Assembly: GCA_023511915.1 (NCBI GenBank)
Contig: JAIMAN010000026.1
Span: forward strand, 1-33,463
Direction of reading: 5' to 3'
DNA length: 33,463 nt
Origin: Armatimonadota bacterium
GTDB taxonomy: Bacteria; Armatimonadota; Fimbriimonadia; Fimbriimonadales; GBS-DC
The notes under the pieces were generated by a model. The model worked only from the letters and a program-made list of their open reading frames with translations. It had not been told where the DNA came from and ran no database searches. How positions within the stretch are numbered: the first letter of the stretch is position 1; every line of letters starts with the position of its first letter. Made by a program: the position numbers and the translations under genes. Of the stretch, positions 8 to 6,366 are shown piece by piece.

Positions 8-139
8 CCCCTCTCCCACGCGGTGGGAGAGGGGGGGGGCGCGCTGACCTGTTTGGAGTGCTGAAGCGTCCGCTTCAGCGTGGGCGGAAGCTTCGCTTCC
101 GCACTCCATAACCCCCTCTCCCGCCCCGCGGGAGAGGGG
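8..139. repeat. Composite palindromic intergenic element
   Basis: Three palindromic blocks are stacked here. A 12-bp-stem hairpin at 8-19/23-34 (CCCTCTCCC arms) is followed by a block with outer arms GGAGT/ACTCC at 55-59/103-107. That block encloses two perfect hairpins, at 61-68/71-78 and 84-91/95-102. A second CCCTCTCCC-type hairpin follows at 113-124/128-139. The two outer hairpins are near copies of each other. No coding potential is convincing in 1-208. The element lies downstream of the minus-strand UPF0175 gene and could end its transcript, but it looks more like a dispersed REP/MITE-like repeat. Only one copy of this exact sequence is visible in the window. Confidence 0.7.
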
Positions 140-550: not shown

Positions 551-1756
551 ATGAAGATACTCGTCGCCGATAAGTTCGAGCAGAGCGGGCTGGAAGGGCT
601 GAAGTCGCTGGGCTGCAGCGTGGTGTACGACCCCAGCCTCAAAGACGACGCGCTGGTGGACGCCATCCGCACGTACAACCCCGAGGTGCTGGTCGTGCGT
701 TCCACGAAGGTCACCGCGCCGATGCTGGAGGCGGGCGACTTGAGCCTGGTGATACGCGCGGGCGCGGGCGTGAACACCATCGATGTGGACACCGCCTCGC
801 GACGCGGGATCTATGTCGCGAACTGCCCCGGCAAAAACGCCATCGCTGTCGCCGAGTTGGCGTTTGGGCTGATTTTGTCGCTTGATCGGCGCATTCCCGA
901 CAATGTAGCGCAGTTGCGGGCAGGTCAGTGGAACAAGAAGGCGTTCAGCGAGGCGCGCGGGGTGTACGGTTGCACGCTGGGGCTGATCGGCGTGGGCAAC
1001 ATCGGGCGCGAGATGATTACCCGCGCGCGGGCGTTTGGGCTGCGCACAATCGCGTGGAGCCGTTCGCTGACCCCCGAACGCGCCGAGCAACTCGGCGTCG
1101 GCTTCCGCGCGACCCCGCTCGATGTCGCCAGCGAAGCGGACATCGTGAGCGTGCATGTCGCGCTGACGCCCGAAACGAAACACCTATGCAACCGCGCGTT
1201 TTTCGAGGCGATGCGCCGCGGGGCGTACTTTATCAACACTTCGCGCGCAGAGGTCGTCGACGAGGACGCGCTGGCGTGGGCAGTGCGCGAAAAGGAGATC
1301 CGCGCGGGGCTGGATGTGTTCGAGGGCGAGCCGAGCGCAGGCGAGGGCGCGTTCCAGCACCCGCTGGCGAGCCTGCCGCTGGTGTACGGCACGCACCATA
1401 TCGGCGCGTCCACCCAGCAGGCGCAGGAAGCCATCGCCGCCGAAGTGGTGCATATCGTGCAGACCTATATGCAGACGGGGCGCGTGCCGAATGTGGTCAA
1501 TCTCGCCGACCGCACCCCCGCGAATTATCTGCTGGTGGTGCGCCACTTAGACCGCGTGGGCGTGCTGGCGCATGTGTTCAACTGCCTGCGCGAGGCGAGC
1601 ATCAATGTGCAGGAGACCGAGAACATCATCTTCGCGGGCGCAGAGTCGGCGGTGGCGCGCATCCAGTTGGACAGCGCGCCACCCGAAGCGACCCTTGCAT
1701 CGATACGCCAGCACGAGTGCATCTTCTCGGCGACGCTGGTGCCGCTGGGCGATTAG
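551..1756 (+). CDS. serA: D-3-phosphoglycerate dehydrogenase
   Basis: This 401-residue enzyme would oxidise 3-phosphoglycerate to 3-phosphohydroxypyruvate with NAD, the first step of serine synthesis in the cytoplasm. The substrate-binding domain is split around a Rossmann fold with GVGNIG at residues 147-152. The catalytic triad of the 2-hydroxyacid dehydrogenase family is present: Arg232 (NTSRAEVVDE), Glu260 (DVFEGEP) and His283 (HHIGAST). An ACT-like regulatory domain fills roughly residues 325-401 ('HLDRVGVLAHVFNCLREASINV'-like pattern), suggesting allosteric control, classically by serine. The ATG at 551 is chosen because GGAGG lies about 8 nt upstream and the protein then begins MKILVADKF, as in the family; an upstream GTG at 485 would add 22 unlikely residues. 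It converges on the next gene with a 4-base overlap of stops. Confidence 0.93.
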   Translation: MKILVADKFEQSGLEGLKSLGCSVVYDPSLKDDALVDAIRTYNPEVLVVRSTKVTAPMLEAGDLSLVIRAGAGVNTIDVDTASRRGIYVANCPGKNAIAVAELAFGLILSLDRRIPDNVAQLRAGQWNKKAFSEARGVYGCTLGLIGVGNIGREMITRARAFGLRTIAWSRSLTPERAEQLGVGFRATPLDVASEADIVSVHVALTPETKHLCNRAFFEAMRRGAYFINTSRAEVVDEDALAWAVREKEIRAGLDVFEGEPSAGEGAFQHPLASLPLVYGTHHIGASTQQAQEAIAAEVVHIVQTYMQTGRVPNVVNLADRTPANYLLVVRHLDRVGVLAHVFNCLREASINVQETENIIFAGAESAVARIQLDSAPPEATLASIRQHECIFSATLVPLGD

Positions 1757-3324
1757 CACCCCGCGCCGAAGTTGAACAGCACCAGCAGCAGGTCGGCGTC
1801 GTCGACAATGCCGTCGCCGTTCAGGTCGGCGTTGGGGTTGTCGCCGCCGAAGGCGAACAGCACCGCCAGCAGATCGGCGTCGTCGATGCAGTTGTCGCCG
1901 TCCACATCGCCCAGCACGAGTTGCGAGCGCAGGTAGGGGTCAATCGTGTCGCCGCCGGGCAGCAGCGTTTCTGGGAACTGCTGCGAGAGTGCGCCCTGCG
2001 CCTTCACCTGCACCAGCCAGACGGGGGTGTAAAAGCCGTCGTCGTCTGTAATCGCCTCGTCGCCCGCCTGCAGCGAAACGCGCCAGACGCCGTTTGCATC
2101 GGCGGTGGTCGTCTTCGTGACGCTCGTTCCTGTGTTCGGATTGATGATTTGCACCGTCACGGGTCGGTTCGCGCCGTGCGGGGCGAGGTAGCCAATCAGG
2201 AGCGGGCTGTTGATTTCCTGCTGCGCCCAAGCGAGCCGATTCGCGCCGTTGACGAACTCGGCGTAGAAGTAGCGCGTGGGCGGCGCATCTGCAGGCACAA
2301 AAAAGGTAATCACCGCAGACTGGCGCGGCTGGAGCGTGAGGCGCTGCTGGATGTCGGGCTGGAATCGAGTGCGCCAGTCGGCGAGTTGGCGTCCTGTGAG
2401 CAGTCGAGTGCCCTGCGTATACAGGTACAAATCGCCGACGAGTTCCTGATTGCCGCGATTCTCCACCGTGAGTTGCACGCGCCGTGAGCCGTCGTCCTGA
2501 TACACCGACGGCGCAAACCGCCACGACAGGGGCAGCAGCGGTACGATATTCCCGTTTCTGAGCCAGTGGAGCAATCGGAACCCGCTACTGCCGCTGCACC
2601 AGTGCGCATGTTCCGATTCGAACGCCCATAGTTCGCCTGTCGTCCCGCCCGATGCCTCAATGTCGCGCACGACACTCCCTGTGAAGTAGTGTTCCAAGTG
2701 GGGCGGTTCAGGAATCTCAGGGTAGAACACGCGGTCGCGCAGGGCAGATACCGCGTCAAGAATCTTGATAGTATATTGCGTCGTCGGAGTTGCGTACTCG
2801 TAGTCGTACTGGAAGCGTACTTGGCTGTTTCCAGGGTACGCGAGCTGCCCAGAAACCGCTCCCAGCGCGTCTTTCGGAGTATCAAGCGTCTGCAGCACCT
2901 TGATGCGGAAGGCGTATTCTTTGGTGGTGTTCGCCGCGTTCACCACACGGAACTGGATGTACCAATCCTCGACGGGCGTCGGCGTGTTCATTTTGTAGCC
3001 GAAGGTTTTCGACGCGCCGGGCGCAATCCGCGCGGCGGTTGTGTTCGCCTGAAAGCGCAGGTTGTGCGGAATCGCGTCCCACGGCACATCGGGCAGATGC
3101 GCCCAGTTCGACGGCGTGCTGGTCGCCTGCAGCACCCCCGCCGTCGTGTATAGCACATGCAACTGATCCACCCACCACCCGCTGTTGTTGTTCTGCACGG
3201 TCATCTGGTACTCGTTGGTGAGCGGGTTGACCAGACTAATCGTGATTTGCACATTGTTTTGCGCCATCAGAGATGACGCAAAAGCCATCGCAATTGCTAT
3301 TCCAAACGCCCTCTTTCGGAGCAT
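1753..3324 (-). CDS. Secreted protein with C-terminal dockerin-like module
   Basis: This 523-residue protein begins with a signal peptide (about residues 1-21, ending SLMAQ) and ends with a 52-residue dockerin-like module (472-523). The body is rich in beta strands and aromatic residues and I do not recognise its family; it includes an early segment with a 'NNNSGWWVDQLHVLY' type pattern and no obvious catalytic motif. The module has two calcium-loop-like motifs, DVDGDNCIDDAD and DLNGDGIVDDAD, and ends FNFGAGC. It is the last of three tandem secreted genes on this strand. GAGGTG lies 4 nt before the ATG and TATAAT 17 nt before it, so this gene has its own promoter and a normal ribosome-binding site. 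It is probably exported and surface-associated. Confidence 0.85.
   Translation of the reverse strand: MLRKRAFGIAIAMAFASSLMAQNNVQITISLVNPLTNEYQMTVQNNNSGWWVDQLHVLYTTAGVLQATSTPSNWAHLPDVPWDAIPHNLRFQANTTAARIAPGASKTFGYKMNTPTPVEDWYIQFRVVNAANTTKEYAFRIKVLQTLDTPKDALGAVSGQLAYPGNSQVRFQYDYEYATPTTQYTIKILDAVSALRDRVFYPEIPEPPHLEHYFTGSVVRDIEASGGTTGELWAFESEHAHWCSGSSGFRLLHWLRNGNIVPLLPLSWRFAPSVYQDDGSRRVQLTVENRGNQELVGDLYLYTQGTRLLTGRQLADWRTRFQPDIQQRLTLQPRQSAVITFFVPADAPPTRYFYAEFVNGANRLAWAQQEINSPLLIGYLAPHGANRPVTVQIINPNTGTSVTKTTTADANGVWRVSLQAGDEAITDDDGFYTPVWLVQVKAQGALSQQFPETLLPGGDTIDPYLRSQLVLGDVDGDNCIDDADLLAVLFAFGGDNPNADLNGDGIVDDADLLLVLFNFGAGC
1756..1911 (-). repeat. Dockerin-like 52-residue module, copy 1 (with Cys pair)
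   Basis: This encodes residues 472-523 of the secreted protein at 1753-3324. It has two EF-hand-like loops, each followed by 'DDADLLxVLFxFG'. A Cys sits at module position 8 and another is the last residue of the protein. The nucleotide sequence is clearly alike in all three copies. Confidence 0.85.
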
Positions 3325-3341
3325 GATTCACCTCACCCACT

Positions 3342-3347
3342 ATTATA
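3342..3347 (-). promoter_or_regulatory. -10 box (TATAAT) of the secreted protein gene at 1753-3324
   Basis: A perfect TATAAT on the minus strand lies 17 nt before the ATG at 3324, with GAGGTG between them. Confidence 0.5.
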
Positions 3348-3375
3348 GCACACATGGGCTGTCCGAGCGTGAAAG

Positions 3376-3398
3376 CCCCCCGCCCGTGCCGAGCGGGG
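3376..3398 (-). terminator. Possible terminator after the Cys-rich secreted gene
   Basis: A GC-rich hairpin (CCCCGC at 3378-3383 pairing with GCGGGG at 3393-3398) is followed on the minus strand by GGCTTTC. It lies 26 nt past the stop of the gene at 3424-4551 and before the next promoter. The T-run is weak, and the flanking CCCCCC/GGGGGG runs suggest it may be a degenerate copy of the intergenic repeat family. Confidence 0.35.
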
Positions 3399-3423
3399 AG
3401 CGTTGAGCGAGAGGGGGGTAAAG

Positions 3424-4551
3424 TTAGCATCCCGTGCCGAAGTTGAACAGCACGATGAGCAGGTCGGCGTCGTCGACGATGCCGTCGCCGTTCACATCCG
3501 CCGCGCCGCCCTGTCCGCCGAACGCGAACAGCACTTGCAGCAGGTCGGCGTCATCGACGCAGCCGTTGCCGTCCACATCGCCCGGCGTGCGCGGAATATC
3601 CTGACCTGACACGCCGCCGCCGCCCATCTCGATGCCTTCCACCACTTCACCACGACCCGCTCGGAAAGGCAGATCAAAGACGCCTGGCAAGGTAATCCCG
3701 CCATCGTCGTACAGGGGCATCGTGTCGCCGACATTCGGCAGTCTCAAATCCGCAAACTCGCCCGTCGCTTCCGATTCCACGACTTGCATGTTGGCGTCCC
3801 AGCGGATGTGGATGCGCGAGGATTCAGAGCTCCCCGAGCGCCCCTTGAGCAGTGTGACATGCCCTGTCTTCCCGCGGTCCTTTGATCCAGTGCGCGCGGT
3901 CGCGCCGTCGTCATTAGGTTGCCACCAGAAGTTCGACGCGCTGAGTTCGAACAGCACCTCCTCGCGTGTGGCTCCCGTGCTGGGATTTCGGTAGCGAATA
4001 ATCACAGGGTCGTACATCTGCACGCCGCACTCCGAGCCGAGCGCGTCTTGGAACTGGGGCGTCCAGACGACCGTGCCCTGCGTGATGTTGGGGCAAGAGA
4101 TGACGATGTGCGAGTTCGCGGCGGCGTTCGCGCCGTGCCTGCGGCATATCGCGCAGGCGCGTCCAAAAGCCGTGTGCGTACCCTGTAGGCAGTTGGTTCC
4201 TGCAATCCAGTTCACATTGAAGCTGGCGCACGCTGTCGCAACTGCGCAGCTCTGACCACCTTGCGTGATTTGCGCTTGAGCGCACTGGCTATCGCTGCTG
4301 GGCACGCTGTAGGTTTGAGAGCCACTGTTTGTGTTGATAGTCGGGGGAAGGTTGTTCAGATCCCAAACGGCGGCTTGGGTGTTCCAGTTCCAAGTCACCT
4401 GCGGCTGCTGACAGCCTTGCGGCAGGCACAGCCTGAAGTTATGAGTCACGCGGAAGCTACAGCATCCATGGGTCTGCGCCGTTGCGGGCGTCAGCCCGAC
4501 GGCGGCAACAGTCATCGCCAAAGTCGCTAATATCCCATAGTGTCGTCGCAT
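3424..4551 (-). CDS. Cys-rich secreted protein with dockerin-like module
   Basis: This 375-residue protein has a signal peptide (about 1-25, ending ATAQ). A cysteine-rich N-terminal half has some twelve Cys before residue 210 (HGCCSF, CLPQGC, CAICRR and others), followed by a beta-rich middle and a dockerin-like module at 324-375. I do not recognise the family. The many Cys suggest disulfide stabilisation outside the cell. The module has loops DVDGNGCVDDAD and DVNGDGIVDDAD and ends FNFGTGC. GGAGG lies 10 nt upstream of the ATG, so the start is well supported. It is the middle one of three tandem genes with the same C-terminal module. The 123 nt upstream hold no other gene; a TACATT near 4594 might be its -10 box. 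Confidence 0.83.
   Translation of the reverse strand: MRRHYGILATLAMTVAAVGLTPATAQTHGCCSFRVTHNFRLCLPQGCQQPQVTWNWNTQAAVWDLNNLPPTINTNSGSQTYSVPSSDSQCAQAQITQGGQSCAVATACASFNVNWIAGTNCLQGTHTAFGRACAICRRHGANAAANSHIVISCPNITQGTVVWTPQFQDALGSECGVQMYDPVIIRYRNPSTGATREEVLFELSASNFWWQPNDDGATARTGSKDRGKTGHVTLLKGRSGSSESSRIHIRWDANMQVVESEATGEFADLRLPNVGDTMPLYDDGGITLPGVFDLPFRAGRGEVVEGIEMGGGGVSGQDIPRTPGDVDGNGCVDDADLLQVLFAFGGQGGAADVNGDGIVDDADLLIVLFNFGTGC
3427..3582 (-). repeat. Dockerin-like 52-residue module, copy 2 (with Cys pair)
   Basis: This encodes residues 324-375 of the Cys-rich protein. It has exactly the same length as the other copies and again carries Cys at module position 8 and at the final position. Confidence 0.85.
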
Positions 4552-4674
4552 GGTTAGGTCCTCCGTTTCGTTAATACAGCCGCAGAGCCAAATGTACCCA
4601 CCTTGACGCTTGGATTCGGGCGAATTCGGGGAAAGTTCCTGCGAATCGCCGAATCTGGCAATTGTATGGGGGCG

Positions 4675-6366
4675 TTATCCGCCCGCGCCGAAGTTGAACA
4701 GCACGGTCAGCAGGTCGGCGTCGTCCACTGTGCCGTCGCCGTTCAGGTCGGCTTGCGGGTCGCCCCCGCCGAAGGCGAACAGCACCTGCAGCAGGTCGGC
4801 GTCGTCGATCACATCGTCGCCGTTCACATCGCCCAGCGTCTGGAAGCGCAGGTCAAGGTACGCGAAGCCTCCGTCCACAATAGAGACGCTTGGCAGGCTC
4901 ACGGACAGGTAGCCCGCCGCCTTCGCGCGGATGGTGTAGGCGCCTGCGCTCGCGACGCGCTCCGAGAATCGCCCGTAGGCGTCCAGCGTTGTGGCGATGG
5001 TCTGCACGGTATTGCTGCCCTGACGCAGTTCGAGCGTGAGCGGCGCGCCCAGCGGCAGCCCCTGCTTGCCCTCCAGCCGCGCCTGACCCGACACAATCGC
5101 AGGCGGGTTCACAGGGCGAATGCGGTACACCCGATTCGCGTACAGGCTCACCACATACAGATAGCCGTCGGGACCGACCCGCAAGTCGGTCACCACGCCC
5201 CAGTTCGCGCCGAAACTGGACAGGTTGCGCTCAGTGGATGAGTCCGCCACGCGGTCGGCGAGCGCGCCCGTCAGCACGAAGTCGTCGCGCGCGACGTTCA
5301 TCGTGAAGCGATACAGCCTGCCGTTGTTGCTCTCGCCGACGATGACCTCGTCGCGCACGCCTGCGTCGAACCGCGCCGAGCGCACAAAGACGATGCTCGT
5401 CGCCCCAATCGGCTGCAGCCACGAGAAAACGGGGTCGGCGTAGTAGGCGTTCGGCAGGTAGATGAGGTCATTCGCGTCGTAGGCTTGGTTGCCGTTCTCC
5501 GAGTAGGTCGCGTTGCGCGAGTCGGGTCCCATAATCTTGAGCCAGCCGCTGTTGAAGCCGCGCCCGACGAGGTTGATTTCGTCGTACACATTCGGTCCGT
5601 TTTCGGTGAGCCACAGGCGCGCCGTGAGGCTGTCGAAGACCATGCCGAAGCTGTTGCGAATGCCATACGCCCACAGTCGCCGAATGCGCGGGTCGGCATG
5701 GCTGACGAACGGGTTGTCGGGCGGTGTGGAGCCGTCGGGGTTGAGCCGAAAGACGCCGCCGACGCCCGCGACCGCCGTCGCGCTGGTGTTCTGCTCGATG
5801 CGCGGGTTGCTCAAAAAGCCGCGATTCAGGTCGCCCGTGACGCCATAGAGCTTGCCGTCGGGACCGAACAGAATCACGCCTCCGTCGTGGTTGGGACCGT
5901 TGTTTTGCGTCGTGTCGCGCGGGAACGCCACGATTAGCGTCGGCTCCACCAGCGCGGAGCCGTTCCAGCGATACCGCTCTACGCGGTTGTCCAGCCACGC
6001 CGATTGGGTGGAGGTGTCCGCGCCTGTGCTGGAGCGGGTGTAGTAGAGGTACACATGCCCATTCGTGGCGAAGTCGGGGTGGAGCGCGATGCCGAGCAGC
6101 CCGCGCTCGCTGGCGTTGTTCACGGGCAAGTCCAGCACGGTGCTGACCACCGCGCCGTTCTGCACCAGTTTGACGCGCCCGCTGTTTTTCTCGATCACGA
6201 AAAAGCGCGTCGGGTCAGACGGGTCTAAAAACGCCATCGCAATCGGGAACGATAGCCCGCTGCTGACAACGGTGTCGTAAGTAAGGTCTGAATCGACCAG
6301 TGTCTGGGCGTGTAAACTGCCTGCCAAAACAAGCCCTGCCATCCAAAAGCCTGAACGCGTGCGCAT
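4675..6366 (-). CDS. PQQ-dependent sugar dehydrogenase (GSDH family) with dockerin-like module
   Basis: This is a 563-residue secreted protein. After a signal peptide (about 1-20, ending SLHA) comes a beta-propeller of the glucose/sorbosone dehydrogenase family (roughly 25-425). Its signatures are 'ERGLLGIALHPDF', 'GPNHDGGVILFGPDGKLY' (with the His expected near the cofactor), 'YGIRNSFGM' and 'ENGPNVYDEINLV'. A carboxypeptidase-regulatory-like beta domain follows (about 430-505), then the dockerin-like module (512-563). Family members oxidise sugars using PQQ outside the cytoplasm; the substrate cannot be read here. No PQQ synthesis genes are in the window. The module ends FNFGAGG and lacks both Cys present in its two neighbours. 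The ATG at 6366 is preceded by tandem TATAAT boxes and no Shine-Dalgarno. Confidence 0.9.
   Translation of the reverse strand: MRTRSGFWMAGLVLAGSLHAQTLVDSDLTYDTVVSSGLSFPIAMAFLDPSDPTRFFVIEKNSGRVKLVQNGAVVSTVLDLPVNNASERGLLGIALHPDFATNGHVYLYYTRSSTGADTSTQSAWLDNRVERYRWNGSALVEPTLIVAFPRDTTQNNGPNHDGGVILFGPDGKLYGVTGDLNRGFLSNPRIEQNTSATAVAGVGGVFRLNPDGSTPPDNPFVSHADPRIRRLWAYGIRNSFGMVFDSLTARLWLTENGPNVYDEINLVGRGFNSGWLKIMGPDSRNATYSENGNQAYDANDLIYLPNAYYADPVFSWLQPIGATSIVFVRSARFDAGVRDEVIVGESNNGRLYRFTMNVARDDFVLTGALADRVADSSTERNLSSFGANWGVVTDLRVGPDGYLYVVSLYANRVYRIRPVNPPAIVSGQARLEGKQGLPLGAPLTLELRQGSNTVQTIATTLDAYGRFSERVASAGAYTIRAKAAGYLSVSLPSVSIVDGGFAYLDLRFQTLGDVNGDDVIDDADLLQVLFAFGGGDPQADLNGDGTVDDADLLTVLFNFGAGG
4678..4833 (-). 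repeat. Dockerin-like 52-residue module, copy 3 (no Cys)
   Basis: This encodes residues 512-563 of the sugar dehydrogenase. The loops are DVNGDDVIDDAD and DLNGDGTVDDAD. Both positions that are Cys in copies 1 and 2 are Val and Gly here. Confidence 0.85.

Follow-up and report, generated by a model that had tools for sequence, protein, structure and literature searches.

Co-varying cysteines in predicted dockerin-fold C-terminal tags of secreted proteins from a family of Armatimonadota

Three secreted proteins with a common C-terminal module

The window, that is the whole analysed stretch of 33,463 nucleotides (contig JAIMAN010000026.1 of assembly GCA_023511915.1), belongs to a genome of 2.73 Mb in 122 contigs that is 98% complete. 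Three neighbouring genes in this window encode proteins, referred to here as P1, P2 and P3, which have Sec-type signal peptides in 3/3 cases (read from sequence) and which all end in a module of 52 residues, as the first-pass annotation had stated (Table 1). Direct reading of the codons also bears out its description of the cysteines: the modules of P1 and P2 carry one at module position 8 and another as the last residue of the protein, and the module of P3 lacks both. They are missing as well in the P3 orthologs of other genomes (L066, L073, L075, L082 and L139). The length of "exactly 52" is correct for the window modules, but does not extend to the family, in which the inter-loop linker varies and the stretch up to column 49 comprises 48-53 residues. 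The domain scan gave no confident Pfam domain for P1. Module position 8 corresponds to position 7 of EF-loop 1 if the initial Asp is counted as position 1. At this position of EF-loops, the Ca2+ ligand is normally the backbone carbonyl and not the side chain.

Table 1. Features of the three genes and their C-terminal modules (window positions).
Feature	Position	Strand	Basis
P1, secreted protein of 523 aa with a signal peptide; both Cys in the C-terminal module	1753..3324	-	sequence and domain scan
P1 module, predicted dockerin fold, 52 aa, GDVDGDNCIDDADLLAVLFAFGGDNPNADLNGDGIVDDADLLLVLFNFGAGC	1756..1911	-	profile match and predicted fold
P1 Ca loop 1, module residues 2-13	1873..1908	-	sequence, EF-loop pattern DxDGDxxIDxxD
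P1 Ca loop 2, module residues 29-40	1792..1827	-	sequence, EF-loop pattern
P1 Cys8 codon, EF-loop-1 position 7	1888..1890	-	sequence
P1 terminal Cys codon	1756..1758	-	sequence
P2, secreted protein of 375 aa with a signal peptide; both Cys in the C-terminal module	3424..4551	-	sequence and domain scan
P2 module, predicted dockerin fold, 52 aa	3427..3582	-	profile and domain scan
P2 Cys8 codon	3559..3561	-	sequence
P2 terminal Cys codon	3427..3429	-	sequence
P3, secreted protein of 563 aa with a glucose/sorbosone (PQQ-type) dehydrogenase domain and a CarboxypepD_reg-like domain; its C-terminal module is Cys-less	4675..6366	-	sequence and domain scan
P3 module, predicted dockerin fold, without the Cys pair (Val8, Gly52)	4678..4833	-	profile match
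P3 module Val8 codon	4810..4812	-	sequence

A 2-hydroxyacid dehydrogenase-like gene (485-1756) is convergent with the P1 gene. The stop codons of the two overlap, and the codon for the terminal cysteine of P1 has one base in common with the stop codon of this neighbour. Near the start of the window (8-34 and 113-139) there is a REP-like palindrome of the form CCCCTCTCCC-N6-8-GGGAGAGGGG, which occurs in 62 copies genome-wide, compared with 0 for the reversed control pattern.

Distribution, predicted fold and relatives of the module

A profile built from the three window modules has 57 matches in the same genome. About 54 distinct modules could be read, all of them C-terminal in their frames, and most of the complete host proteins start with a Sec-type signal peptide. 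The hosts that were scanned are mutually unrelated and include glucose/sorbosone dehydrogenase, subtilases, M1 and M23 peptidases, a lamin-tail domain, SpoIID, WD40 and PQQ propellers and ThuA-like proteins. Two copies in this genome (L043 and L055) have unrelated letters in frame right before Cys8, which suggests frameshifts, pseudogenes or assembly errors. Within the phylum, strong matches cluster in a single family of the Fimbriimonadia, GTDB f__GBS-DC, where the module was found in 18/18 genomes, two of which have 129 and 115 copies. In modules sampled from other families, both cysteines are missing almost throughout, the one exception being L194, a lone module with Cys8 and a Cys tail. 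A sub-type without the pair (L131, L080) has the linker QSCPSGCPE and tails like xxGAxAFA.

C-terminal sorting tags such as PEP-CTERM and T9SS type A consist of one module that is common to many unrelated secreted proteins of a genome. The module described here resembles them in this respect, but differs in its predicted Ca-binding dockerin fold, and has neither a transmembrane tail nor a beta-sandwich tag.

AlphaFold2 models that were computed for the window module together with 31 relatives, and for module L120, which has four cysteines, reached pLDDT values of 88.7 and 90.9, respectively. The leading Foldseek matches are all dockerins, with 2y3n_B at the top (TM 0.78, rmsd 1.2 over 52 columns), and calmodulins, whose EF-hand pair is helix-loop-helix with the loops back to back, rank far below them with a TM of about 0.3. 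The models contain two Ca loop-helix motifs in the antiparallel arrangement of dockerins. In dockerins, helices 1 and 3 run antiparallel and the Ca loops lie at opposite ends (PMC5934362), which implies that the segment after helix 3 comes to lie beside loop 1. The module is thus predicted to be a dockerin fold, with its C-terminus, by topology, at the loop-1 end. In the L120 model, DSSP assigns isolated bridge residues at 21 (Cys8), 37, 49 and 65 (which adjoins the last cysteine). A pairing of 21 with 65 and of 37 with 49 would fit the dockerin topology.

The closest described families are dockerin type I and the GC-type dockerin. With PF00404 (curated cut-off 22.9), P2 scores 23.4 in the genome search and 21.9 by hmmscan, P1 scores 13.9, and P3 is unlisted. 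With NF041540, the NCBIfam model of the GC-type dockerin (cut-off 29), the three whole proteins reach 21.2, 21.9 and 20.2 bits and the window modules alone 24-27, still below the cut-off, which is passed by three other modules of the same genome. The likeness to the GC-type dockerin lies in a C-terminal dockerin-like tag with a Gly-Cys end, which is present in P1 and P2 (P3 ends in GG). The difference lies in the N-side cysteine: NF041540 favours it in a C-x-x-D motif before loop 1, and in the window modules it is found inside loop 1, although two modules of the window's genome, L058 and L059, carry C-x-G-D. We probed the preferences of the model by scoring altered letters. A cysteine in the last position is worth about 3-5 bits and one in the first position (C-x-x-D) about 2-3 bits, while Cys8 lowers the score by about 1.5-2 bits. 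As NF041540 favours a final cysteine, the terminal cysteine is already a known feature of a class, and the first-pass annotation's remark that it knew of no dockerin class with this pair applies only to the in-loop partner, which NF041540 lacks. In the library searched, no paper uses the term "GC-type dockerin", and searches for dockerins with a disulfide or with Armatimonadota gave nothing on this cysteine pair among the papers listed. The in-loop-1 position, and also the second pair described below, which NF041540 lacks as well, appear to be undescribed.

Dockerin type I (PF00404) and its "intramolecular clasp" are comparable in fold, in the duplicated Ca loop-helix and in the joining of the ends. 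Such clasps are non-covalent, formed by Trp-Pro in Ruminococcus flavefaciens ScaA and by Tyr5-Pro66 in a Clostridium thermocellum dockerin, and they affect stability (PMC5934362, PMC4728124). In the modules studied here, by contrast, the clasp would be covalent, the helix motif is DDADLLxVLFxFG, cohesins are not detectable and the scanned hosts do not look like a cellulosome. Searches for Pfam cohesins gave none in the genome of the window or in any of the 18 f__GBS-DC genomes, 11 of which are at least 90% complete, and no glycoside-hydrolase domain was found in the 23 hosts scanned. Thus no cohesin-bearing scaffoldin was detected in these genomes and no dockerin-bearing glycoside hydrolase among the scanned hosts, which makes a cellulosome unlikely. 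The dockerin fold might still speak for cellulosome-like modules with cohesins that have diverged beyond the reach of Pfam, an idea that concerns the receptor and would be compatible with a disulfide in the tag. In view of the same two negative results, we consider it unlikely.

Coupling of the loop-1 and the terminal cysteine

In the genome of the window, 35 modules have both Cys8 and the terminal cysteine, 0 have Cys8 only, 6 the terminal cysteine only, and 13 have neither (Fisher p 2e-8). We then counted 286 distinct modules of f__GBS-DC, scoring the loop cysteine at position 7 or 8: 206 have both, 62 neither, 15 only the terminal and 3 only the loop cysteine. Modules with a single cysteine of the pair, on which the coupling proposed from the three window modules could have failed, thus make up only 18/286, and 5 of these carry a substitute cysteine. 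Column 52 (215 cysteines) and column 8 (204) stand apart from the next commonest column (35), and in 203/206 modules with both cysteines the terminal one sits at column 52.

To allow for the relatedness of the modules, we applied a Pagel-type likelihood test that compares a dependent with an independent model of the two traits, on a tree built with the cysteine positions masked. The likelihood ratio (LR) for the pair is 109.7 (p about 9e-23), and lies between 120 and 167 on 12 bootstrap trees. It exceeds the values of all 127 other residue pairs that were used as controls (median 4.8, maximum 100.9). The highest of these belongs to a Ca-ligand pair of loop 1, module positions 4 and 6 (EF positions 3 and 5; window 1894-1902 and equivalents), where Asn/Asp and Asp/Asn are swapped in a coupled manner, by which a single loop charge is apparently preserved. 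This swap is a real constraint and serves as a positive control. The modules are short and branch support in the trees is weak: well-supported branches provide only 3 independent pairs, each of which either agrees with expectation or is neutral, too few for power. The co-occurrence of the two cysteines is not due to chance; across hundreds of homologs, and after phylogenetic correction, the pair is gained and lost jointly.

Terminal-only modules have a cysteine just upstream of the module in 5/15 cases, compared with 0/62 for modules with neither cysteine (p 1.5e-4). These substitutes occur in L058 and L059 of the window's own genome, there as C-[ED]-G-D, and in genome G173, twice in L253 and once in L199. 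They indicate that the N-side cysteine can take several places (position 7, position 8 or just ahead of the loop), and that its C-terminal partner stays put. One family of orthologs, of G-N-V-N-G-D type, breaks the rule (L015, L097, L123, L140 and L141 versus L033 and L242) and has one cysteine without an evident partner. Outside this type, L090 is the sole module with a loop cysteine and no terminal one. Located at the end of a contig and agreeing with the both-Cys module L148 in all but its last residues, it is probably an assembly chimera.

Co-variation would also be expected if the disulfides were intermolecular, linking tag to tag in dimers or polymers, or tag to receptor, to give covalent surface assemblies. 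The terminal cysteine is the exposed final residue in 183/206 modules with both cysteines, and the 15 modules with a terminal but no loop cysteine would likewise suit such a bond. However, the coupling is tight and one-to-one between sites that are adjacent by dockerin topology, the number of cysteines per module, 8 upstream residues included, is mostly even (231 even, 55 odd), and the N-side cysteine shifts while the C-terminal one stays in place. We therefore give this explanation a low probability.

A founder effect, with both cysteines stemming from one ancestral module that was spread by duplication and without any bond between them, has to be considered because the pair is nearly absent outside f__GBS-DC, so that the cysteine form may have few origins. 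Yet parsimony requires 24-27 changes per cysteine trait (29-45 on bootstrap trees), the dependent model stays ahead throughout (LR 110-167), L194 carries the pair in another family, and other common residue pairs, the Ca-ligand pair excepted, are not coupled to this extent, all of which makes the idea very improbable. We attach as little weight to metal binding or a redox switch in place of a structural disulfide: Cys8 does lie inside a metal-binding loop by sequence, but most copies have two thiols only, position 7 of an EF-hand binds Ca through its backbone, and export together with VKOR (see below) favours oxidation.

A putative disulfide staple

The co-variation of the cysteines, combined with a dockerin fold that has its C-terminus at the loop-1 end, is best explained by a disulfide clamp. 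We estimate at roughly 0.78 the probability that the modules are dockerin-fold, Ca2+-dependent C-terminal tags with a stabilising intramolecular disulfide between Cys8 and column 52 in most copies, and with a receptor other than a recognisable cohesin. What the first-pass annotation had proposed as a clamp between loop 1 and the C-terminus holds as far as co-occurrence, joint loss and topology are concerned; the disulfide, its contribution to stability and a docking or anchoring function we infer.

Our model is as follows. The tag would sit, in a Ca2+-dependent manner, at the end of a Sec-exported protein. Its Cys8, which occupies position 7 of the first EF loop, would bond to the cysteine at column 52, usually the last residue, and would thereby pin the strand that leaves helix 3 onto loop 1. 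Such a staple would be the covalent counterpart of the aromatic/proline clasp at the ends of cellulosomal dockerins, and would probably keep the tag from unfolding, losing Ca or being cleaved by proteases where the environment is hot and oxidising. Oxidation would probably be the task of a VKOR-DsbA-type fusion that is encoded in the genome of the window, with a VKOR domain and a thioredoxin-like tail containing CPAC. VKOR occurs in 107/113 genomes of the order, some of them from families that lack the cysteine pair, and is therefore permissive for the pair rather than specific to it; the notion that the pair tracks the presence of VKOR was rejected. A link to thermophily is plausible. The genome KatS3mg018, assigned to GTDB f__GBS-DC, stems from a 52 degree spring (PMC9671151). 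As a working reading, we take the tag to serve as a C-terminal anchor or sorting tag.

A second pair of cysteines also co-varies, which the first-pass annotation had missed along with the lack of detectable cohesins. One of them lies in the linker, about 5 residues ahead of the module, and the other at module position 32, which is EF position 4 in loop 2. In the 286 modules, both are present in 25, the linker cysteine alone in 18, the loop-2 cysteine alone in 10 and neither in 233 (Pagel test LR 23.5, p 1e-4; 14-50 on bootstrap trees). Carriers include L120, L122, L017, L028 and L049, and their loop-2 cysteine lies within NCDG. Since dockerins have two-fold pseudo-symmetry, this pair could be read as a mirror staple, in which the N-terminal strand would be joined to loop 2 as the C-terminal strand is to loop 1, so that a subset of tags would be stapled a second time, between loop 2 and the linker ahead of the module. 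The inter-loop linker of several modules has CxxC or CxxxC (CxxC in L217, L244, L251, L254 and L216), and a third, local disulfide is possible there. Taken to its end, this leads to a doubly stapled, pseudo-symmetric dockerin with both ends pinned covalently, the C-tail to Ca loop 1 and the N-linker to Ca loop 2. Such a tag would anchor exported proteins of many kinds, from dozens to more than 100 in each genome, and would be read by a receptor other than a cohesin. We put this forward tentatively, with the odds somewhat against it.

If the clamp exists, it may offer protein engineering a design rule for disulfide-locked dockerins. Where bacteria have no recognisable cohesins, the docking partner of their dockerin-like tags has been a loose end. 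The large and uniform set of tags in f__GBS-DC, a family that includes hot-spring members, with its predicted built-in covalent clasp, makes a clean test case, and the second coupled pair turns it into a specific prediction, namely that some of these tags would be held by two symmetric staples.
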